From Scolanthus callimorphus (Eukaryota; Cnidaria; Anthozoa; Actiniaria; Edwardsiidae): a DNA stretch of 64,000 nucleotides. The first letter of the stretch is position 1; the number at the start of each line of letters is the position of its first letter. A program made the position numbers and the translations under genes. Shown in pieces: positions 37,705-51,500 of this stretch. A model generated the notes under the pieces. That model saw only the letters and a program-made list of their open reading frames with translations, had not been told where the DNA came from and did not search any database. The stretch is taken from positions 1,566,856 to 1,630,855 of the forward strand of contig CM066922.1 in NCBI GenBank assembly GCA_033964015.1. The letters are read 5' to 3'.

Positions 37705-37713
37705 GCTTTCTCT
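37705..37713 (+). repeat. Left 9-bp target duplication of element A
   Basis: GCTTTCTCT, identical to 48561-48569. Confidence 0.9.
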
Positions 37714-37782
37714 TAGGCTCTATTTCCAGCCGTTGTTAGGCGTCCGGTCTTGCGATCCTCCCCCCACAGACGGCTGGATGAC
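37714..37782 (+). repeat. Left terminal inverted repeat of element A
   Basis: It starts TAGGCTCTATTTCCAGCCG and ends near ACGGCTGGATGAC, so it contains its own inverted CCAGCCG/CGGCTGG pair. It pairs with 48499-48560. Confidence 0.9.
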
Positions 37783-37933
37783 TGGTCGAGACTGCTTGTC
37801 CGTGACGTCACTGTTTCGAGCGTAACGCAATATTGTAAATTGATACACTTTGGCGCGCGTTCGAGCGAGACGTCACATAATAGAAATATAACCCCACTGA
37901 GTTCTTAGCTATTTTTATCCGGATTACACGCAT

Positions 37934-40900
37934 ATGGAAGATGATACTCCAGTTAAGCCAGTAAAGGAGGTTTCCCCTGAGTTCTCCTGTTGTATCTGCG
38001 GTCAGGACCTTCCCGATTCAAGGAAACGATCGCGGATAACGCCAGATATTGCCAGGCGAGTGTCCGAAATTGTCACTGTTGTACCCGAAAAAAGTAGTTT
38101 TTTGTGCAACGATTCGTGTTCAAAGGCAGTTTCAAAGTATAAAAAGGCAAAGGAAACCATTCAAGAGGTTGAATATATTTTAAAGGAACGTTTTACGCAG
38201 CACAGTTTGCGAACTGCCAGAGTTAAGAGAGGAATTCCTACGGATGTTGGTGATCATTCCCCTGCGCGCCAAAATGTAAAGAGAAGGTCAGCTTTGCAGC
38301 CAAGAACTTTGGCGTTCTCAGATACCTCGAGTGAACAGAAACTCCTTCCCAATTATCATCCATTTCTCCCTGTCCTACCAAGGCCGGCAAGTTCAAGTTT
38401 CTCAGCAATCTTACCGGTCCTTCATTGTGCTGTCGGCGCACCGCTTGGAGCACCGCCGGTAGTTCCTACTTTTCCTGGTTCAGTAAACAACATTAAAGGA
38501 TCGGCTAATCTCACCCCCAACTTTCAGAACGTTGTCTCTGTCTCTGGATCGTCAGTTGATACAGTCAAGGTAGGTTTAAATTGTGGATACTGTATACTTT
38601 CTTTCATACATCGCGCGCGAATGTTTCCTCGGTGTTTAACAAATCGACACAAAACTGTATTTATCACGGGACGATTTGCCGATAATCACGAAGCCAGAGG
38701 CGACTAATTGTTTTAGTATAATTGCTCAAGTGATTCATAAGGTTTTTAGGCAGAAAAACATTATTTTGTTGGACTTTTTCAACATTCAAGGATCGGCTAA
38801 TCTCATCCCCAACTTTCAGAACTTTGTCTCTGTCTCTGGATCGTCAGTTGATACAGTCAAGGTAGGTTTAAATTGTGGATACTGTAGACTTTCTTTCATA
38901 CATCGCGCGCGAATGTTTCCTTGGTGTTTAACTTACAAATCGACACAAGTATTTATCACGGGACGATTCGCCGATAATCACGGAGCCAGAGGCGACTAAT
39001 TGTTTTAGTATAATTGCTCAAGTGATTCATAAGGTTTTTAGACAGAAAAACATTTTTTGTTGGACTTTTTCATCATAACAAATCTCGCGCGCGCACTCCC
39101 TATCCTTTCAATGTTATAATCACATGTATTATAGCGAGAGAAAACGAACCCCTCTATCAGCGCGCGGAAATTCTTATAATCACTTGAGCAATTTTATACA
39201 AAGCATAGTACCATCCTTTGGTGGAACGCCTTATTTACCTAGCAGAGTCCTAGTAATATATTTGTTCTCCTAGAAACCTGGGAGTAGCTTGCAAATCCTC
39301 CCAATTGTCTACCCCGTCGAGCCACCATCACATGCTCCTAGCCTCAATCCGGACGAGCTTTTAGCACCAGTTTGCACCGTCGAGGTAAGTTTTGTGCAGG
39401 CGACGAACAACGAACTTGTACATAAAAGCCATCTATATTGGAAGTGGCTTCAACAAACCATGGAGTTTTGCCATTTTAGTGTTTGTAATCCCTTTGTATT
39501 CTTTTGTTTGTCTACTGAGTACTAGCCCATTTTCCAGATTTTTGAAAACTCTAATCTACAAATGAGCCTATAAATCCAGGGTTGGGTTGGGGGGGGGGGG
39601 GGGGGAGTCTGCATAAAAATAGACATGATGTATTTTCAACCTAAGGGATAGCAAAGTGGGTGTGGTCAAAGTAATTTTAAATCCAGAGAGCAGATAAGAG
39701 AAACTTCTTTTCAGTTCCACTGGAGTTTATGGCCCTTAACAAATAACCCCTATGGAAACAAACCTCTATGGAAACAAAATGTTGAAATTCTTATTGTTGA
39801 AATTTTAGGCCACCCTTGGTGCGAGACCCCCTAAGGGGTAGCAGACTCTCAGAACACCCTACAGGATAGAACAAGTAGCCTCCCCGGCAGTGTCAAGGCC
39901 CCTAATAATGATGTGGGGGAGGCTGTAGGACAAGCACCCCACATATTTTATAGGGATCCACCCAGCCTAAAAAATATTATCATGTTAAAATGTCATCTAT
40001 TGAAAATATGCACTCTCAGTTTCATTTCAGTTTTATCTCCCTCAATGAAAACTGAGAGAACAATTATCCTTTCATGTGTACTTCATGTTTCAAGTTTCAG
40101 ATTCTACAAAAATATGACTTTTTTGGTCAATGTTTTTTCTTTTGATTTTCCTAACATTAATTTCTTCTATCATTTTAGGTCAAGGTTATTTATGAAAGTG
40201 GGAGTAAAAAGGTTAGAAAACTTCCAAGTGAAATGTTCAGGCTGGGAAAGGCACTAGCAAGAGGAACTACTTTAAGTGTTGCACAAGCTGCATTAGAATG
40301 CACTGAGCTCCGTGCTCACATCGAGGATCTAGTGATTAAATCTATGGCAACAGAAGCTAAAAATTTGACTGCTCTAAATGACCCTTCCATTCTTCGATGT
40401 ACAACAAAGAAAGCCATACAAGAGTTTACATGGAAAGCTGTATCAGATGAGTTCACAAGTCGCACACCCCTGTTGTACAGAGCACTCCATGCAGCTGCTG
40501 GTGTTGCACCAGATAAAGGGATCAGTCCAGCTGTGTTAATGGCACAGTCTATTCTACAAAAGAAACGGGATAAAGCTATGTGTCTAGTCCAATATGTGAC
40601 AGGGCTAATTTTAAAAATTGGCAGGACACCCAAAAAGGTAATATACATAATTTGTGTTCACTGCATATAAATGTCTGAACCAATGCAGGATCAGTGGCTC
40701 TTAGAAAAAGATGAAGGGAAAGCATATTGACGAAATGCTAATAACAATGGGCTTTCCATTTAAAATCAATACCCCCTCCTCCTTTTAGAGAAGAATGGGA
40801 TTTCTTCAGGGCTCAAGCATTTTAGGGTTGAAATTTATTCAGGAGTCTGCCTTAAAAGTGGGCCTCCTCAATAGGCTTAGGGTTGGGATTTTACATGAAA

Positions 40901-43900
40901 CAGCCCAATGTCACCAGTTTATGATATGAAGCAATAGACATTTTTTAAGAAAATGGAGCATCTGGCATGGAAACAAGGCTGGAAATATACATTCCTCAGA
41001 AGTTCACATTTTCAACTACTAAATCATGTTCAACTACATATTTGCAACCTTCACTTATTTGCCATCCAAGAACGACAGAAAACACTAGAAATTCATCAGC
41101 GGACAGAGGCTTCCCTGAGTAGTGGCAATGTTTGTTTATATTTTCAGCCTCATTTCCATGCAAGATTTGTAAGCGGAGTGTACTGCCAATGGCATATAAG
41201 CCCCTGTCTCTAATAAACTAAATAAAATTCCCCATGGCTAGGAGCCTTAAAACAAATACCCCCACCCCAGCCCACTTTTTGTTATATACACTCATTTCCA
41301 TTTTGTTCATAGGGCATCACAAGGATGAACCACTTGGGTGTGACAGTCTCCACCAAAACTGTGAATAAAGCTCTAGATAATATTGGAGAGGACTACAATG
41401 CTCCATTATTAAATTGGCACAAGTCATTATCATCTCATCTCAAAGCCTCCCCAACTGATGACACTACCACTTCAGCTCCCCAGCCACAAAATTATGCTAT
41501 GGTATTGGACAATTTCGACTTGCGGATTACAGCAGCTGACATGACCTCTGATAACCAGAACAAAGACCATCATTGGTGTAATCACAATGTAGTCCTAGAT
41601 CGTGTGAGTGACTCAAATCTTGATGACAGTCATCCAACAGCTGATCTGTTAGAGGTACCAAATGCTACATTTCTGCCCACAGCCACTGACCACCAGGCAT
41701 TAATGAAGGATTATGCTATACTTGTGTCACGAGTTCTGGTGGAGCACTGTCAAGCATTTCGAGACACATTCAAGGATATTGTTCCCCAGCACATACCTCA
41801 TAAGTACAGTGACATTTTGAAGAAACAATCTGATAAAGTGAATCTTGGCATACTCTTCAAAAATGAGAATAAAGGAGAAGAAATTATAGATATCGTAAGG
41901 TATCTCCATCAGTTTGTACCAAGCACTGGAGAAGAAGACAACGAACAGTTTGGAAGGATGCCTATTGTTGGGGACCAACTCACAATAGAGAGAGGTGTAG
42001 AAGCCCAATTCAGTGTCACTAATGCTTACACTCCAGCTAGACGACTTGAGGGTATATTCTTCCAGTTAGCTGACTGGCATCATGAGAACAAATTCCTTGA
42101 TGTAAGCAATGACATACTCGTAGACACATCCCCAATTGAAGCATTTAATGCAATTTAGCATAATTTTTGCCTGTAAATGTAGAGATTCAAGCATGTTGAT
42201 TGGCCAATAATTATGTTGTCTTTAGCCATTACTATATATTTTGGTTACTGGCAGTGATCTTTTCCAAGTTGTGACCGAAATATCAAAGAAAATCAGGTTT
42301 TATTCCCCCTTTTTATTTCTCTGATATTTACTGGCAAAATTATACTAAACATTTGCACTGGGGCTCAGTGACTATTCAACCATTATCCTGCGAGATTGTG
42401 CAGAATATTGTCTGATGCTAAATCAGACAATATTCTGCAAAAATCGAGCAGGCGATAATGGTTTTATTATTCAGCACATCGATAGCAAAAAAAATCCCAG
42501 AAATGATGTACTTTTGTGTATTAAATATGAGCTCAACACATCATATTTCCCTCAGAGATGGATATCACAGGATATATGTCATGTACAGAAGACAGCTATT
42601 GGCGTTCCAATGACCATATTTTGCCAGTGCATCGATGTGCTGAATAATAATATAGAATATAACCTGCTACTGTATATTTTTTGTTTTAGATAATATTTGG
42701 CAGGTTCTACAGTGGTGCCTCAGCATGTGACAGAACTTCATTGTTTGCTATTCGCAACCAGATAAATTGGCGTAACATTGTCACAGACAGTCACAGCAAG
42801 CCTGCTGAATGCAAGCGTTTTGTAAACCTTGTTCTTGATGCAGATATTCTTGCTGCTGCACTACATTTCTTTGGCATGCAGTTGCTGGACGACAAACCAT
42901 CCAGAGGAGGATTTCCTGCTACCTTGCAGGCAGCCACATTAGGGGTAGTTAGAGAAAGATACTTAACCAATGTTGTAAGGGAGTTTCTGAGTACTTATGT
43001 TGCCAACAGACAGCTGTACTTAGCACATGCTGCCAACATAAATGCCCTCCAGCAATGGGAGTATGCTCAAGACAACCAGCCTCTCACACCAGAGGGGCGA
43101 TATCCCTGTAGATTTACTGGCTGTACATCATCATACAAAGTTGACGGAGCATGCAGACGAAGGCATGAGATGTCACATGATCCACCACCAGATGTTCAAT
43201 ATGCAGTCAATCTCACGAACACTGTACCTGACCCAACAGATGAAAACCCTGATGTCAAAGATGACGTATTCGATTACCACTGCTCTTTCATGGGCATGGC
43301 TCTCCTACTGAGAAATTTTCGTGATGCCGGAAAGGAAGGTGACGGGGAACGTTTACTGAGGTGTATAAAGTTCTTTTTGCTACACTTCTTCCAAGATGGT
43401 GCTGGGAGTACAAAGTATGCTTTAGAAGCACTCTATATTAACTTCCAGGTAAATGCCCTCCTAACTCCAAGAGAAGCTGAACGAATGATTTGGAATCGAA
43501 CAATTAATAACAAGGGAGGTCTTGGAAACAATGTTTTCCTAGACCTAGATTTAGAGCATGACAATCATCTGTTGAAAGATATGTTGAGAGGACTGGGAGC
43601 AAATGTGGCAGAGGCGTCAGTAGAAAGGATGTCTAAGGCATTTTTGTCATGAAGACACTATGTGAAAGGTATGACACAGAGATGGAAGTGAAAAAGGTCT
43701 CTGGAGATCACACCTCCAAAAATGTTAACAAGGACCTCTACACTGTGGTGAAATTGTTACACAAGGAAGAGGTATTCTCAGCTGCCCCAACTGCACGCAC
43801 CCTGAGGGCCTTTCCAGACTGCCCAAGAGATTATCTGCAGCTGTTAAATACAGAGGAACTATTTAAATGGATCAATGAGCACAAAAAGAAGATTCATCTT

Positions 43901-43918
43901 GGGTCACGACCAAGGTAG
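37934..43918 (+). CDS. DUF6589-type (AcademH-like) DDE transposase of element A
   Basis: A transposase would cut the TIRs and join the element to a new site. Exons by GT/AG: 37934-38569; 38791-38861 (duplicate of the end of exon 1); 39274-39384; 40179-40637; 41313-42101; 42690-about 43648; remainder to 43918. In order: N-terminal zinc finger (FSCCICGQDLPDS with NDSCSKAVSKYKKAK), helical region (LRCTTKKAIQEFTWKA), first catalytic Asp in MVLDNFDLRI (about 41507), second in IVGDQLTIERG (about 41970), a C2H2-like insert (YPCRFTGCTSSYKVDGACRR, then RHEMSH), KEGDGERL (about 43336, candidate third acidic residue) and DLEHDNHLLKDMLRGLGAN. A T5 run at about 43643 shifts the frame near the C-terminus; a one-base sequencing error would suffice. 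The same blocks occur in element B and, as I recall, in fungal DUF6589 proteins. Confidence 0.8.
38487..39076. repeat. Tandem duplication of about 295 bp including an exon
   Basis: 38487-38782 and 38783-39076 are near-identical. Both contain the coding block GSANL-PNFQN-VSVSGSS, its splice donor AAG/GTAGGT, and intron sequence ending GTTGGACTTTTTC. The second copy lies behind an acceptor-like CAACATTCAAG. Confidence 0.9.
39009..39199. repeat. Short inverted-end repeat
   Basis: TATAATTGCTCAAGTGATT is inverted as AATCACTTGAGCAATTTTATA at the right. It lies in intron 2 of the transposase; its left end was copied in the 295-bp duplication. Confidence 0.65.
42401..42437. repeat. Perfect 16-bp hairpin
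   Basis: CAGAATATTGTCTGAT, loop GCTAA, ATCAGACAATATTCTG. It forms the centre of a larger imperfect palindrome with a TTTTGCCAGTGC/ACTGGCAAAAT pair, intronic in the element A transposase. Confidence 0.85.
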
Positions 43919-44695
43919 ACATGATAATCACCTAGGCATATAGTTTAACACAGAAACATGTTTGTTAGCTATATTTCAAACAAGTTCTCAAAAGTGAGAA
44001 ACACCCTATACAAAAGACAAAAACAGTATCTGAGTCAAGAGTAATATAGCTGTAATATGGCTTACTAATAATGGCCACTTCCAGAAAATGTTCCTACTTG
44101 CACGATGGACAATGAGCCATTATCTCTAATATATTAATTGCCGCATATAGATTTTTAAACAAGAACTCCAAACTTGACCCCAGACAACCCACCACCACCA
44201 CCCTAACCTTTCGGAATTCCCAAAATTGTACTGTGGTGGGGATATATATATTTTATGGAATGGCCATGTTAATATTATGGTTATGAAAGAAGAAGCTAGA
44301 AATACTTGTGATATGGGACAATAACTTGATCAATGTCTCCAAAAATAGTTACTCCTATCACTGAGCATGAGCTGTTCTTCTTCTAGCATTTACATAATAA
44401 ATATTTAGGCTGAAGTTGTTAGTTACACTGTACATTATTAACATTTTGCACTGGTCACTTTGTTCTGTCAAACCAATCAATCCCTGTTTGGAACATTTAT
44501 GACAATGGATGACATTAGTGTGACCATTTGTCCAATACAAAAAACCTTGTATAAAACATCCTTTTTTAATTAGTCTGAAATATTTCATATAAATTTACTG
44601 AAGGTTCTAAAAATGTGTATCTAAAATGGGAACTTTTTGCCTACAATGTTATTATCTGCAGGATTTTACTGTATCACAACAATTATATCTTTGAG
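43919..44695. other. Spacer between convergent transposon genes
   Basis: No gene seen. Part (about 44160-44265) resembles a decayed MITE with CCACCACCACCCTAACC and GTGGTGGGGATATATAT ends. Confidence 0.4.
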
Positions 44696-44801
44696 TAGGC
44701 GTAATTTCCAGCCTTTGTTTTGAGCCCACAGTCCATCCCTCAACAATGGGGTGGATCCCATGGCTGGATGCCTAACGAAGGCTTGAAATACATAAAGCCT
44801 A
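44696..44801. mobile_element. 106-bp mini-element made of two element-A-like ends
   Basis: Left TAGGCGTAATTTCCAGCC...TGAGCCCACAGTCCATCCC matches the right TIR of element A in reverse. The right end, read inversely, is TAGGCTTTATGTATTTCAAGCC followed by TTCGTTAGGCATCCAGCC, which matches the left TIR. It looks like an AcademH-derived MITE sitting between the two genes of element A. The 9-bp flanks match only weakly. Confidence 0.65.
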
Positions 44802-44894
44802 ATACTTACAGCTGTAGCAGGATCCCTCTCTTGTGAATTCCCACAGCATTGTCAATGAGAGACTTGCCAGAGCCAGTTATCTATGAATGGACAA

Positions 44895-45005
44895 TCCTAG
44901 CCTCATTCCCAGGCTACCCCTTGCTGTCAGCTCGTGCAAGCCAATGACGTCATAGCCGGGCAAAGCATGACAGGCCCGCCGAGTAGCCTGGGGACGAGGC
45001 TAGGA
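44895..45005. repeat. Short MITE with TCCTAGCCTC ends
   Basis: TCCTAGCCTCATTCCCAGGC and its near-inverse GCCTGGGGACGAGGCTAGGA frame about 110 bp. Confidence 0.8.
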
Positions 45006-45302
45006 CAATCCCAGAAAACATTTGTACCCTCGAAATAGGCCTAGGGCAAACAGCTGAATGTTAGTGGTGTTGAATTCATTTTTTTTTTTCAAAAGATGCT
45101 TTGCAATTATCACTTTGTAATTAATCGGTGTATTTTGAAAAAAATAAATCTACGTGATTAAAATTCAGTGGTTGCCCTAGGAGTTAGACAGCTTGTTGAG
45201 GGAACAATTTTTTTCTGGAATTGACCAACACAATAGTCTAGACTGCAAGGTGACACTTGATTTCAAGAATAAATGAACAAAATTGTTTTTGACTTTCTCG
45301 TC

Positions 45303-48300
45303 TTAGTCATCACTGTCAACTTCAAGATCCATTTCAATGTCTTCAGAGTCTGCTAAAGTTAGAAATTCCAAGGGGATATTCCGGAAAATGTCATCATCCT
45401 GATCTTTGTCCCATGACCAGAAGCACAATAGGTCATTGTTATCGAAAGCTTCCTCCTCCTCATCATCCTCATTGTACTCATATCCAGTGTCCCCAAAGCA
45501 TTGCTCTAAGGCAACAAGGATTTCCTCCGCAATAGGAGGCTGCCAAATATCCACATACTTGTGAATATCTTCAGAAGTGAAGAGTAAGTGAGAGTGTTCA
45601 ATAACTTGCTTGATTTGTACCTCACCAAACCCTGTCAGTAGCTCTGGTGGAGTAAAGAGCCTGGAAGCAGTGTTCTGTCTCATAGTATTGGCCATTGCAT
45701 GTTTAATGTATTGCAGCTTCTTTTCCAACTTTTCTTTCTGGGAAGCACTCACGACTCTGGTCTTGTCCTGCTGTATGGGTCCTTGTGGCAGTTGTGGTAA
45801 TGGTATGTACACAAACGAACAGCCATTGCCTGTACATTTGCATTTTGCCTGGCAAATGTCACAGCATTCATGCAGAATTGTGTACTTGTCATCCTCCTTT
45901 AACTCTTCACCAAACTGTGCAAGAAGAACAACTCTGCGGCAAACAGTGTTATTGTGGACGTACTGCTTCATCTCCTCACTGCAATGCTGTAGCATTACAT
46001 TTGAGTACAGGATAACAGCCTTACACACATTGTTGGTGTCCCTGCCTGCCCGGCCACTTTCTTGCATATAGGCCTCCATATTTCTTGAAGGTCCATAATG
46101 AAGAATTGTGGACACACTGCGGCAGTTAATGCCCATGCCATACGCAATAGTTGCAACAAGCACTCTGACTTTCCCTTGAGGGTCCGAAAAGTCTTTTATT
46201 ATGTTCTCCATGTTAAGCTTATCCACTCTTGCATGGTACATCTCCACCATACTGGTGCGCAAGTCTCCTTTAGTCAGACACATATCATCTCCCAGTGCTG
46301 CCTTGAATGTGCCATAAACTTGCGCTGCTATCTTGATAGTTTGGCAATAAATAATTAGCCTATCTGAGGCCTCCTTGTTGTCCCTTAACAAATTGATGTA
46401 GGGCGCAAATGTTGTGATTGGGCTTCCACCCATTGTCAACACTGCGTATGTGATGTTCTTCCTGTTTGGGCTGGAGGAGATCATCACAGCATGCTCCATT
46501 TCCAGGGCTCTTACTATTTTCTCCCTGGTTGTCTTGGTGGCTGTTGCGGTAAGGGCTAAAATGGGTACATGTCCAACCAAGGAGCGAATTTCATTAATTC
46601 TTGAAAACCATTTCCTGAAAGCTATTTCACCTTTCTTTACAGCATATCCCCTAGAAAAAAGATAATTCAGATTATTATAAAAATGACACTACTTTGCTAA
46701 AAGATTGCAGGGGACCACTGGCCTGGTCCACACTAGGACACAAGCATAAGTTTAACGTAATTGGAATACACAATGCAAGCATAAGCACAAGCTTGAAGCA
46801 AGAAGAACAAAACTTGCATTTGTGCTTGCATATCAATGAGGGCGCTCAAAATGCAATGCTTGTGTTTATAACAGCACCAACAAAATCAGTGTGTAAGAAG
46901 TTCCTTATGCTTATGTCACTAGACACAGGCATGACAATAGTGGAGGGGTATATCCTGTAGACATATAGATTACAGAAAGAGTCTGAGGTGACTAGTACAT
47001 TGCTTTCAGTTATTCTATCACTGGTAGGTTTGACAATAATTCATGATACTTATTGTGTGGTTCCAGAAATTATCCATACCCCCCTATGGAAGGGCATTGG
47101 AAATTCCGGAGGGGTGGGGGTTCAATTTACCTGATCATTTCCATACAAATACTGTATTTTTCCTTGGAAATTCCAGAGGGATGGGGTGGTCACTTTTCAA
47201 CACCCTTCCGTGGAGGGGGTATGGATATTTTCTGGAACCACACATTATGGCTCTATTTTCAGCCATTGTTTAATATTGTTTGAAATAAAGTTAAAGCAAT
47301 AGATCAAGCCCAAGTGAGTGTAGTTTGCATTGAGTGAAGTGTCAGGTAATTTGTCAAATAGCTAATAATAACTTTATTTAAACATTTTAAACAACGCAAA
47401 GTCAAGCAGAGCGTTCAACAACAGTCACTATATAAATATTTCAATAGAGCGGTTTTCATATGACTGTCGTGAAGCCAATCGCAAAGTAATTACACCAATT
47501 CTGAACAAAACCTATAGGAATAATTACAAAGTAATTGCGAATTAGTCACGACAGTCATCTGAAATCCGCTCTATAGACATTTGTCAATAGCTGTATTCAC
47601 ACTAGAGACGGAAAACTCGTATGAGACGAGTTTCTCGCCAGAAAAAGTTCCTGTCTTATGTCAATTCTTCTCAGAAACACTTGCTTGTTATCTGTCTAAA
47701 CTTTCTTCTTCAAAAAAATTGTTTTCGCGTGATCACAGAAGAACAGGGAACCATATTCAAGGAGAGAAACTCGTCTCAGACGAGTTTTCCGTCTCTAGTG
47801 TGAATACAGCTAATGTCTGTAGAGATCAGTCGGAAAACATACAAGCCATGGGCATGATATAACATTTCCAAAATTATAAAATAAGAATTGTTTCTTACCA
47901 ATGCTGAATACAGTGTGCCTCATCTACGGCGACAAGGCACAGGCGCTCCTGATAAATTTTGCTTGACAGCATGGTTCTCCAGCGTGGAGTAGCGAGGAAT
48001 GACTCGGGGGATCCAAACACTAGCTTGTATTTGCCTTGCACCACATTTCTTTTTACAGTTTCGTCAGTCTGCTCTTCCCCAATAAATGCCGCACTTATTC
48101 CGATAGAATTCAGGTAATTCACCTGATCCTGCATGAGTGAGGACAGTGGCGAAATAACAAGCGCGATGCTGTGACTTTCACACTTCGCAAAGGCATCGTG
48201 TAACAAAGGAAAGGCCTGAAAAATAAGCGATTTCCCGGAGCCTGTGGGCTGGATAACAAGAACATCCTTCTTCAGAAGTAGATTTTTCAAAGCTCTCGCT

Positions 48301-48385
48301 TGAGAATCACGAAAACTTTGCAATTTGAAGAGACTAAGGACAGGTTTGAAAGCGCATCGAAATCTTGGAGCAAGTCGTCCGCCAT
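45303..48385 (-). CDS. RecQ-family DNA helicase of element A
   Basis: ATP-driven 3'-5' DNA unwinding, presumably in the nucleus during transposition. Exon 1 is 48385-47899 and exon 2 is 46650-45303; they join at a Trp codon (CATTG/GTAAG, CTAG/GGGATATGC). Motifs: I QPTGSGKSLIF, Ia ALVISPLSSL, II VAVDEAHCIQHW, III LALTATAT, IV DRLIIYCQT, V VRVLVATIAYGMGI, VI QESGRAGRD. After these comes a Cys cluster (HECCDICQAKCKCTGNGC) like the RecQ zinc subdomain, then a long acidic C-terminus with no HRDC domain seen. The ATG at 48385 (MADDLLQDFDAL) is in a different frame from motif I. The two meet near 48335, so either a one-base indel or a different start is involved. The intron holds four MITEs. Confidence 0.85.
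46721..46930. mobile_element. MITE with GCCTGGTCCACACTAG ends
   Basis: GCCTGGTCCACACTAGGACA and the near-inverse TGTCACTAGACACAGGC, with ACAAGCATAAG / CTTATGCTTATG next inward. It lies in the helicase intron. Confidence 0.75.
47054..47244. mobile_element. MITE family M3, best copy
   Basis: TGTGTGGTTCCAGAAATTAT and the inverse TATTTTCTGGAACCACACA, with CCATACCCCC/GGGGGTATGG inside and a duplicated GGAAATTCC block. TTAT lies on both sides. It is in the helicase intron. Confidence 0.9.
47445..47574. repeat. Palindromic MITE with TAGAGCGG ends
   Basis: TAGAGCGGTTTTCATATGAC and GTCATCTGAAATCCGCTCTA are inverted. ACTGTCGTGA/TCACGACAGT and GCAAAGTAATTA/TAATTACAAAGTAATTGC extend the arms. Confidence 0.85.
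47588..47812. mobile_element. MITE with about 50-bp inverted ends
   Basis: TAGCTGTATTCACACTAGAG with GACGGAAAACTCGT at the left, mirrored exactly as ACGAGTTTTCCGTC with CTCTAGTGTGAATACAGCTA at the right. It is in the helicase intron. Confidence 0.95.
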
Positions 48386-48498
48386 TTGATGAATGTGTGA
48401 CATTCTAGCTGAGCCTCGATAAAATGGTCAGCGGTCTTTCGCGGAGAACTAGGCAGGCTCTTTTCTGATTGGCTAGTTTGATAATCGTACCGATCAAG

Positions 48499-48560
48499 TG
48501 TCCAGCCGTTGATGTGGGGACGGACCGCGGGCTCACAGAAACGGCTGGAAATCGAGCCTA
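48499..48560 (-). repeat. Right terminal inverted repeat of element A
   Basis: It ends CGGCTGGAAATCGAGCCTA and pairs with 37714-37782. Confidence 0.9.
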
Positions 48561-48569
48561 GCTTTCTCT
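48561..48569 (+). repeat. Right 9-bp target duplication of element A
   Basis: GCTTTCTCT, identical to 37705-37713. Confidence 0.9.
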
Positions 48570-51500
48570 AAATGTTCGAGGTTTGCGAGATAACAAAAAA
48601 TGCAATAAAATTTTTCATTGGATTACAAAACACAAAGGCGATAGCGGAGTGTCATTCTTGCAAGAGACCCATAGTACTCCAGAATTGGAAACTTGCTGGG
48701 CTAATAGGTTCCGAGGTGATATTATCATGGCCCACGGAAGCTCTCAGAGTAAAGGCGTTGCGATTTTTTTTGGACATAAGTCAGACCATAAAATACACAG
48801 TAAGATAGTGGATAACAATGGGAGATTTGTTATAGTTCACTGCACGATGCAAGGTAGTGATTTTTTGTTCATTAATTCTTATGCACCAAATGATGAGGCC
48901 TCGCAGATTACTCATTTTACTGAAATACAAAGTAAAATACAGTCCCTGGATTATCCCGCGACAGCCAATATTGTATGGGGAGGAGATTTTAATTGTTTTT
49001 TTGACATCGACCTCGAAGCGGCGTTTGGAAATCCTAAGTTAAAATTGAAAACAATTTCAACCTTGGAAACAATAATGGCTGAATTTAATTTATGTGACAT
49101 TTGGAGACTCCGTAATCCGTTGGTAAAACGATATACATGGCGCGGTCACGCGCAGGGTATTCGCAGCACCCGTGGACAAATTCTACATAGGCGTTTAGAC
49201 TACTTCTTGGTTTCAGACGATCTTCAAGCTTTTACAAACAAGTGTGATATTATTCCTGCACCCTCTACTGATCACTCAGCAGTAACCTTAATTTTGCGCG
49301 CTGCTTACGACGATCAAAGGGGCCCTTCGTATTGGAAATTTAATAATTCTCTTCTCGAAAAAGCGGCCTATGTGGAGGGTTTGAAAGAGTCTATCAAAAA
49401 ATGGAAGACTAATTTAGATAGTGAAGACATTAGTAATCCTCAATTAAGATGGGAATTGTTAAAATATGAAATTAGGAAATTTACAATTAGGTACTCCAAA
49501 TCTCTGGCACGTGAACGTAGAGATAATTTCAGTAAGTTGGAGGAGCAAATAAAAAATATTGAGGAAATGGATAATTGGACTAAAGATGAGGAGCTGGTAT
49601 TAAATCACAATCAACTTGTTAGGGAATTGGAAGAGTATAGTAATTATGTTACGGAGGGAATCATAATTAGGTCTAGTTTTATTTAGTATGTTGGGCTTTG
49701 CTCGGTAACGATCTCGTTAATTCTCTTAATCATGCCTTTAAAGAAGGTCGATTGTCTACAACACAACGTCAAGTTATTATTTCGTTACTCGAGAAGGCAA
49801 ACAAAGACTCCAGATTTTTGAATGCCTGGCGTCCTATAAGTTTGATAAATGTGGACGCAAAATTGTGTAGTAAAGTTTTGTGTAAACGCCTGGCGGATAT
49901 TCTTCCTTTGTTAATTCATCCAGATCAAGCTGCCTTTGTAAAAGGGAGAACTATCGATGAACCTATTAGGTTAATCGATGACATTATGGAATATGTAAAG
50001 AAAATAGATAAGTCGTATATTCTCTTCGCAGCGGATTTTGAGAAAGCCTTTGATTCGTTAGACCACAGTTTTATATTTGCTACCTTGGATCGTTTCGGTT
50101 TTGGAGTTGAGTTTATCAAATGGATTCGTGTTATTCTCTCAGATAATTTTGCTTCGATTATGAATAACGGTAATATGACTCCCAATTTCTGTTTAGATAG
50201 AGGCTCTAAACAGGGTGACCCAATTTCGCCCTACCTCTTTATATTAGTGTTAGAGATCATGGCAATAAGGGTTAGAAATTGCAGCAGTATAAATGGTGTT
50301 AATATTGGCGGTAAGGAAATTAAATTGACAATGTTTGCTGACGACACTACGTTCTTTTTAAAGGATTCTACCTCGCTAAAGAATCTATTGAATCTTCTAG
50401 GAGATTTTTGTAATTTTTCCTCACTTAAAATAAACTTATCAAAGTCAGAGGCTGGGTGGATAGGAATGGAAAATAAAGTTGATAAGAAAGTACGAGGCAT
50501 TAAGTGGGTTGATTTTCATGTTAAGGGCATTACTGTTTTAGGAGTGTTTTTCTCTTATAACGATAAGTTGCGCTATGATAACAACTTTAGGCGAGTCCTA
50601 GATAACTTTAAAGCAGTTTTGTCTATTTGGAAGTCCCGGACCTTGACTGTGTATGGTCGAATTCAAGTGTTAAAATGTTTGGCTTTATCCAAATTAAATT
50701 ATATTTGTTCAAAGTTAGTAGTTTCTAAGGAGTTCATTAAGGAAGTGGAGGTAGCTATCAAGGATTTTGTGTGGAGAGGGAGGAAACCGAAAGTAAAATA
50801 TTCCACTATTATAGGTGATTACGAAGACGGCGGGTTGAGATGTCCTGATTTTTCGTCCTCTGTAAAAGCGAGTAGAATAAAATTTGCTTTTCAACTTTCG
50901 TTGGTTGAGGACCGGACATTCACGTTTTTGCCTCATTATTTACTGAAATCTATAGGTGGTATGAAGACTATTCGGGAGAATTTTGATGTCTCTCGAATAC
51001 CCATTAATTTACCCGAGTTTTATAAGGATGTTTTGATCACTTGGGCTGACCTTTTCTCGTCCTCACTTGGTGAGGCTGAAGTAATAGATCAATATTTGTG
51101 GAATAATAAATATATTAGAATAGGAGGTGAGGCAATCGTTTACCGTAGTTTCTACAGGTGTAATATTCATACAATAGCTGATTTATGTAATGAAGAAGGA
51201 GTTTTTGAGTGGGAGAGAGTTAGAAGAAAAGGTGTTTCAGAGTCTGATTATTTTAGATGGTTAAGTCTTGTGCATGCTATCCCAAATCAATGGAAAACAA
51301 GGTTAAAGAACGAGGTTTTAGGTAGCTCCTTTTCAACATCACGGGTACGTTTGGGGGATAAATATTTAGAAATAGAAAAAGTTTCGACTAGGATTGTGTA
51401 CAATTATATAGTACATAGTAAATTTAAACTTCCTTCAGCGCAAGTTAATATATGTTAAAGAATAAATGCAAGCATAAGCGAAAAAATAGATTGGACACAA

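Follow-up and report, generated by a model that had tools for sequence, protein, structure and literature searches.

Introduction

The AcademH lineage of Academ DNA transposons was reportedly described by Kojima in 2020; we take DUF6589 to be the Academ transposase and the AcademH helicases to be RecQ-like. In its accessible passages, PMC10045372 assigns to AcademH a helicase and target-site duplications of 9 or 10 bp, assigns to AcademX, of the same Academ superfamily, a nuclease and duplications of 3 or 4 bp, and suggests a link between duplication length and partner enzyme. A title cited there places AcademH in animals and fungi, and its presence in fungi is also mentioned in an excerpt of PMC10799480. 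The staggered cut of the P element spans 17 nt, a length termed unusually long in the available part of PMC7776569 and given likewise in that of PMC10983969; the former also has the Bloom helicase of Drosophila taking part in repair after P-element excision. KolobokH couples a transposase with a RecQ helicase, according to an excerpt of PMC9587614. The present analysis concerns a stretch of 64,000 nt from Scolanthus callimorphus (assembly GCA_033964015.1, contig CM066922.1; C12:1566856-1630855), here called the window and numbered from its first letter, which at 37714-48560 contains what is almost certainly a single, nearly intact DNA transposon of AcademH type, 10,847 bp in length.

What is new here is the observation of two size classes of paired terminal inverted repeats (TIRs), of junctions private to each short copy and of a boundary at an internal motif, box 2, a combination that suggests a reading of the short copies as scars. 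We propose that AcademH elements may undergo a helicase-assisted, extra-long staggered excision, with one nick at the tip and another some 57 nt further in, at box 2, which would leave private scars of mostly 52-116 bp at the sites given up. As a whole, we give this reading a probability of about 40%.

Results

The element is almost certainly a new member of the already known AcademH lineage. It encodes a helicase beside its transposase, this helicase is of the RecQ type, and a duplication of the length assigned to AcademH flanks the window copy and 6 of 9 further long copies. Membership in the Academ group, and in AcademH in particular, had been put forward in a preliminary description of the window made from its letters, and is supported by the helicase and the 9-bp duplication. 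The features of the two ends are as follows.

37705-37713, no strand: left copy of the target-site duplication, GCTTTCTCT, identical to 48561-48569 at 9/9 positions
37714-37734, plus strand: left TIR, 95% complementary to 48540-48560, recurring genome-wide
37726-37733, plus strand: left box 1, CCAGCCGT, element positions 13-20, inverted partner of box 2
37770-37777, plus strand: left box 2, ACGGCTGG, element positions 57-64; most putative footprints end at or before it
48502-48509, minus strand: right box 2, positions 52-59 counted from the right end
48540-48560, minus strand: right TIR
48561-48569, no strand: right copy of the target-site duplication

The 9-bp duplication is as perfect as first described. 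The inverted ends of about 65 bp reported with it stand only as an imperfect TIR: the outermost 21 bp are complementary at 95%, the larger end regions (64 and 60 bp) align with 48 matches in 67 columns, gaps counted, and an even 65-bp repeat is not confirmed. At each end, box 1 (CCAGCCGT or similar) begins at about position 13 and is followed by the inverted box 2 (ACGGCTG), which starts at position 52-58 in all eight end references taken from longer copies.

We searched the genome (597 Mb, 302 contigs) with three TIR families, represented by the window element (family 1), L020 (family 2) and L019 (family 3). The family 1 TIR has 579 matches with at most two mismatches, against 2 for a reversed control; the family 2 TIR has 296 exact matches and that of family 3 has 473 with at most one mismatch, both against a control of 0. 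The first 100 matches were listed for each family, and an 80-bp tandem array on contig C5 takes 8 and 14 of these in families 1 and 2, respectively. This array (C5:1567789-1570185), which has a spacing of 80 bp and an AcademH TIR in its unit, seems to be a mini copy turned satellite.

The preliminary description had made the identity of the element hang on further copies with the same TIRs and 9-bp duplications, and such copies exist in this genome. Seven of the ten long copies that we checked have a 9/9 duplication: the window element, C2:5781126 (L020, 8,936 bp), the copy on C9 (L019, 10,126 bp), C1:23393959, C2:24057618, C4:16415407 and C2:1668597 (L027). The three without it are C1:23418057, C3:31522054 (7,558 bp) and the copy on C36 (L016), where the ends are present and no adjacent duplication was found. 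A further locus outside these ten, L010, yielded no convincing ends or duplication in 14.5 kb of joined sequence.

Convergent TIR matches lying within 20 kb of each other were paired among the matches listed, and the resulting pairs fall into two size classes: 37 of 48 measure 52-116 bp, 8 measure 7.6-10.8 kb and three lie between. Families 1 and 2 together contribute 29 pairs of 67-116 bp, seven of 8.9-10.8 kb and two others; one of these, of 390 bp (L048), has no duplication and by eye reads like a mini copy with a foreign insert, and the other, of 558 bp, ends inside the C5 array. From family 3 come eight pairs of 52-105 bp, a single long pair of 7,558 bp and one of 206 bp, the last consisting of 56 bp of one end, 59 bp of the other and about 90 bp of filler between them within a perfect duplication.

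The short pairs are hereafter called minis. A 9/9 duplication flanks 28 of the 38 listed pairs of 52-206 bp (10/15, 12/14 and 6/9 in the three families), four pairs of loci among them each sharing one duplication and being counted as copies of a single site. When flanks were swapped between 16 family 1 loci, agreement did not exceed 6/9, except in 6 of 240 combinations, which joined loci sharing a duplication.

We also read ends that had found no partner in the pairing. Among 20 such ends of family 2, 16 have a partner with at most four mismatches at 68-125 bp, none has one at 126-310 bp and four lack one; the 16 include six copies of one site and two of another. For family 1 we inspected 69 of the 71 perfect matches and read 36 of the 38 unpaired perfect ends. 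Partners lie at 57-94 bp for 15 of these ends and at 223 bp for L126, and the other 20 have no partner within about 280 bp. By eye, nine of these 20 continue past an intact or similar box 2, two continue past a changed one and the remaining nine depart from the known end sequence ahead of box 2. Nine unpaired ends of family 3 comprise two minis and seven ends that stop one-sidedly at about 23 to 59 bp, and box 2 is kept in none of the nine. An identical mini with the flank GACCATCTA occurs at six places (L090, L092, L093, L095, L098, L100); it is probably a scar carried inside another repeat.

The boundary at box 2 is apparent in the lengths of end sequence retained. Of 132 distinct ends of short loci, 112 stop at or before position 58 in a gapped count: 28 retain less than 30 bp, 20 retain 30-39 bp, 41 retain 40-49 bp and 23 retain 50-58 bp. 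Beyond it lie seven ends of 59-69 bp, two of 70-99 bp (L101 and L126) and 11 of 100 bp or more. The lower limit of these lengths is set by the search, which required some 18-21 bp; the upper limit is not so set.

The junctions of the sampled minis are private. Of the 39 minis of families 1 and 2 that we tabulated, 29 fit the end references well, and 27 of these remain after removal of duplicates. No junction is repeated at different target sites among the 27, microhomology at the junctions amounts to 0-3 nt, and a few of the tabulated minis carry short fillers there.

Origin of the short copies

What could be the process that leaves copies of this kind? We consider that they are probably excision footprints of a P-element-like staggered cut, about 57 nt long instead of 17, and, more tentatively, that the RecQ-type helicase of the element might be the strand separator at excision. 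In the proposed scheme, the element would enter its target through a 9-bp staggered cut. At excision, the transposase would free the 3' end of the transferred strand exactly at the element tip, and the non-transferred strand would be cut some 50-58 nt inside, just outside box 2. The terminal duplex would then be peeled apart, presumably by the element's own RecQ-type helicase, so that one strand goes with the element and the other stays at the donor. Both donor sides would be left with tails of up to about 57 nt, which host end joining would fill, trim and join into scars of mostly 52-116 bp inside the old 9-bp duplication. The two nicks would enclose a duplex of about 57 bp that could not come apart alone, and the scheme would therefore offer a direct task for a RecQ-type helicase. 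The preliminary description had envisaged the helicase as a partner either in transposition or in repair of the excision site. The footprint data favour strand separation at excision, rather than restorative gap repair, as the role of this enzyme.

A number of points weigh against this proposal. All the evidence on mechanism comes from sequence remains, and the helicase step in particular is a proposal, the Academ elements available for comparison including none free of the helicase. The pairs are drawn from the first 100 of 579, 296 and 473 TIR matches, respectively. The boundary is soft by a few bases, several of the values of 59-69 bp over-extending into the other end or into filler, and two minis keep box 2: L101, of 125 bp with 79 bp of one end and a 9/9 duplication, and L126, with a 7/9 duplication. 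The duplication is imperfect in 10 of the 38 paired minis, and among minis reached from unpaired ends it is perfect in 4/10, 4/16 and 1/5, a lower rate, although this is where older and more diverged copies are to be expected. Finally, the 39 tabulated minis include 12 that are duplicates or poor fits, and the junction table leaves outside it the minis of other subfamilies (L051, L052, L057, L061, the L090 group, L094, L096, L099, L102, L105 and L106).

The main competing explanation, which we consider unlikely, is that the minis are internal deletions produced when gap repair after excision aborts, a repair that the helicase would normally promote. Private junctions and an origin in place fit this explanation, and the Bloom helicase of Drosophila acts at P-element breaks, as stated in the accessible text of PMC7776569. 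However, such repair predicts a broad range of sizes, whereas few pairs among the matches listed lie between 116 bp and full length; moreover, most retained tracts in the three families end at a single sequence boundary, a pattern that aborted synthesis would fail to produce. Broad abortive gap repair was rejected on the two size classes among the matches listed.

It is quite doubtful that a nuclease, or the transposase itself, severs both strands at each end, some 57 bp in, during an abortive or mistaken excision. Identical scars would be expected from such cuts, which speaks for them, but the excised piece would lack its ends and be unable to reinsert, making these dead-end events, and short pairs exceed long ones among the matches listed (38 versus 8). 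We regard as improbable the view that the minis are ordinary miniature inverted-repeat transposable elements (MITEs), transposing as units of 52-116 bp. Intact TIRs and the 9-bp duplications in most paired minis are in keeping with it; the spread of MITEs, however, predicts shared junctions, which are absent at different sites among the 27 distinct minis, and box 2, present in the eight end references, is gone from nearly all minis. MITE amplification was rejected for the lack of shared junctions in this sample.

The transposase and helicase pair

Counted exon by exon, DUF6589 has at least 103 scored matches in the genome. We took 20 of these places as 10-kb loci and sought the helicase in them by tblastn: a RecQ-like helicase is present in 17, in 16 of them convergent with and downstream of the transposase, and in the remaining one (L023) as a fragment on its other side. 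No helicase was found by tblastn within 10 kb at L011, L024 and L028, the full extent of these loci being unsettled; the open reading frame lists of L011 and L024 were judged by eye. The 20 loci include seven near-identical copies in three groups (L010/L015/L027, L016/L020 and L017/L025). Two further DUF6589 loci, L148 and L149, which are 99.6% identical to each other, both carry the helicase.

Transposase and helicase distances are congruent across 16 elements, that is, 15 loci and the window element (Mantel r 0.964), and across the 12 that remain without near-duplicates (r 0.903); in each set, 0 of 10,000 permutations reached the observed value. The two genes form one co-inherited unit and have diverged together, so that the unlinked, single-copy genes which the preliminary description, with related species in view, named as speaking against the element are not what the sampled loci of this genome show. 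Because of this linkage and congruent divergence, a captured or chance helicase is unlikely. That two neighbouring elements, or a chance host gene, placed an unrelated transposase and helicase side by side is barely conceivable and was rejected: a diverged TIR-like mini does sit between the genes at 44696-44801, but linkage in 17/20 loci and congruent distances stand against it, as does the single outer duplication surrounding the window copy and further long copies. Of 13 pairs compared for dN/dS, eight are saturated, and the ten values in the other five lie at 0.40-0.72, except for 1.39 in one helicase pair; too few substitutions are available for these to prove constraint. One end motif lies near the helicase start in 6 of the 20 loci, in three families.

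The coding features of the element are the following.

37934-38569, plus strand: transposase exon, N-terminal, with Cys-rich start
38780-39058, plus strand: 292-bp tandem duplication, second unit (the first being 38488-38766), copying the end of the first exon
39274-39384, plus strand: transposase exon with canonical splice sites
40179-40637, plus strand: transposase exon
41313-42101, plus strand: transposase exon with DNFD and GDQLT blocks, DUF6589
42690-43649, plus strand: transposase exon with C2H2-type finger and EGDGER block, DUF6589
43650-43918, plus strand: apparent transposase C terminus, continued in another frame, with the frame break near 43650
45303-46650, minus strand: helicase exon 2, Helicase_C and RecQ_Zn_bind
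47899-48404, minus strand: region of helicase exon 1 with the DEAD domain and a frame break near 48335

The transposase consists of five coding blocks with canonical splice sites, joined in a single phase. The seven exons counted in the preliminary description are thus not confirmed; besides the five blocks there is an exon-like copy, generated by the tandem duplication at 38488-39058 (units 96-97% identical), which doubles the end of the first exon. Two of the exons match DUF6589 (PF20231) with 38.3 and 81.3 bits against a cut-off of 27, upholding the earlier assignment, and no other Pfam family exceeds its cut-off in the scanned transposase pieces. The DNFD, GDQLT and EGDGERL blocks are all present, as had been noted. 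Residues D468, N469, D471, D623, G882, D883, G884 and R886 are invariant in the transposases compared (12 to 21 rows), and E881 has a conservation of 0.9 in the same rows. The C2H2-type finger of the last full exon matches a YY1 chain in a profile comparison (E 7.5e-4), and ZIC3 chains as well; when profiles of the two main exons were compared with solved structures, this zinc finger was found and no transposase was matched. No relatives of the last full exon were found in viral and prokaryotic contigs, and for the last exon a single further close copy exists, which is split and 97% identical (C4:33078684-33080980). A frame blemish had been placed at about 43645, and the frame does stop at 43652, the apparent tail continuing in a different frame up to 43918.

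The helicase, on the minus strand, has two exons and a broken frame. Its identity as a two-exon enzyme with intact SF2 motifs, claimed at the outset, is borne out by domain matches (DEAD, 71.7 bits, in exon 1; Helicase_C, 62.6, and RecQ_Zn_bind, 28.8, in exon 2), which also agree with the RecQ assignment, and by five motifs, TGSGKS, DEAHC, TATAT, GMGIN and QESGRAGRD. Its best solved relative is WRN (E 2.3e-45), with BLM and RecQ also among the best. No ATG precedes the DEAD domain in its frame, whereas five relatives begin with an in-frame Met some 20-25 residues upstream, and this fits the second blemish, reported near 48335.

Several other structures lie in or near the element. The mini between the two genes (44696-44801, minus strand, 106 bp, diverged) joins a right-type and a left-type end in reversed order, and its flanks agree at 4/9; an element of a related family may have inserted here and later left again. 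Next to it on the minus strand, at about 44813-44880, a short open stretch carries a Walker A-like TGSGKSLIDNAVG, has splice-like borders and is perhaps a captured exon. The helicase intron holds a fold-back repeat at 47585-47815, whose 55-bp arms are 95% complementary. The element is inserted right beside an open frame with an Exo_endo_phos match (48562-49686), which we presume to be a LINE. The contig holds a related DUF6589 element with a partial helicase some 50 kb upstream of the window (L013, C12:1511000-1520999).

Significance and comparison with known systems

Many natural scars with a sharp boundary would make the mechanism testable, in the form of a long staggered cut that would be inseparable without unwinding. 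If the proposal is true, the MITE-like TIR copies in these families would for the most part document past excisions rather than being mobile units; MITE-like sequences in such genomes could then be reclassified as footprints and used to count excisions. It would also place a much longer stagger beside the 17 nt of the P element, and long staggered cuts could explain why AcademH elements carry a helicase. Our literature search found no paper naming DUF6589 in the collection searched. In sources represented mostly by titles and passages, with Kojima 2020 outside them, it found no description of comparable scars in Academ elements, and, in the passages available, no stated reason for a helicase in cut-and-paste transposons beyond the remark in PMC10045372.

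The element resembles AcademH in its helicase and 9-bp duplication, and shows no difference from it in the features compared. AcademX differs, with a duplication of 3 or 4 bp against the 9 bp of the window element and a nuclease instead of a helicase; no nuclease match was found in the seven element pieces scanned, a scan that left out the introns and 43919-45302. KolobokH is alike in combining a transposase with a RecQ helicase; in the Pfam scan of the transposase pieces, DUF6589 alone passed its cut-off. The likeness to the P element and THAP9 lies in the proposed staggered cut that would leave transposon-end sequence at the donor; in the accessible parts of the sources, however, their stagger is 17 nt and involves GTP, against the approximately 50-58 nt that the footprints suggest here.

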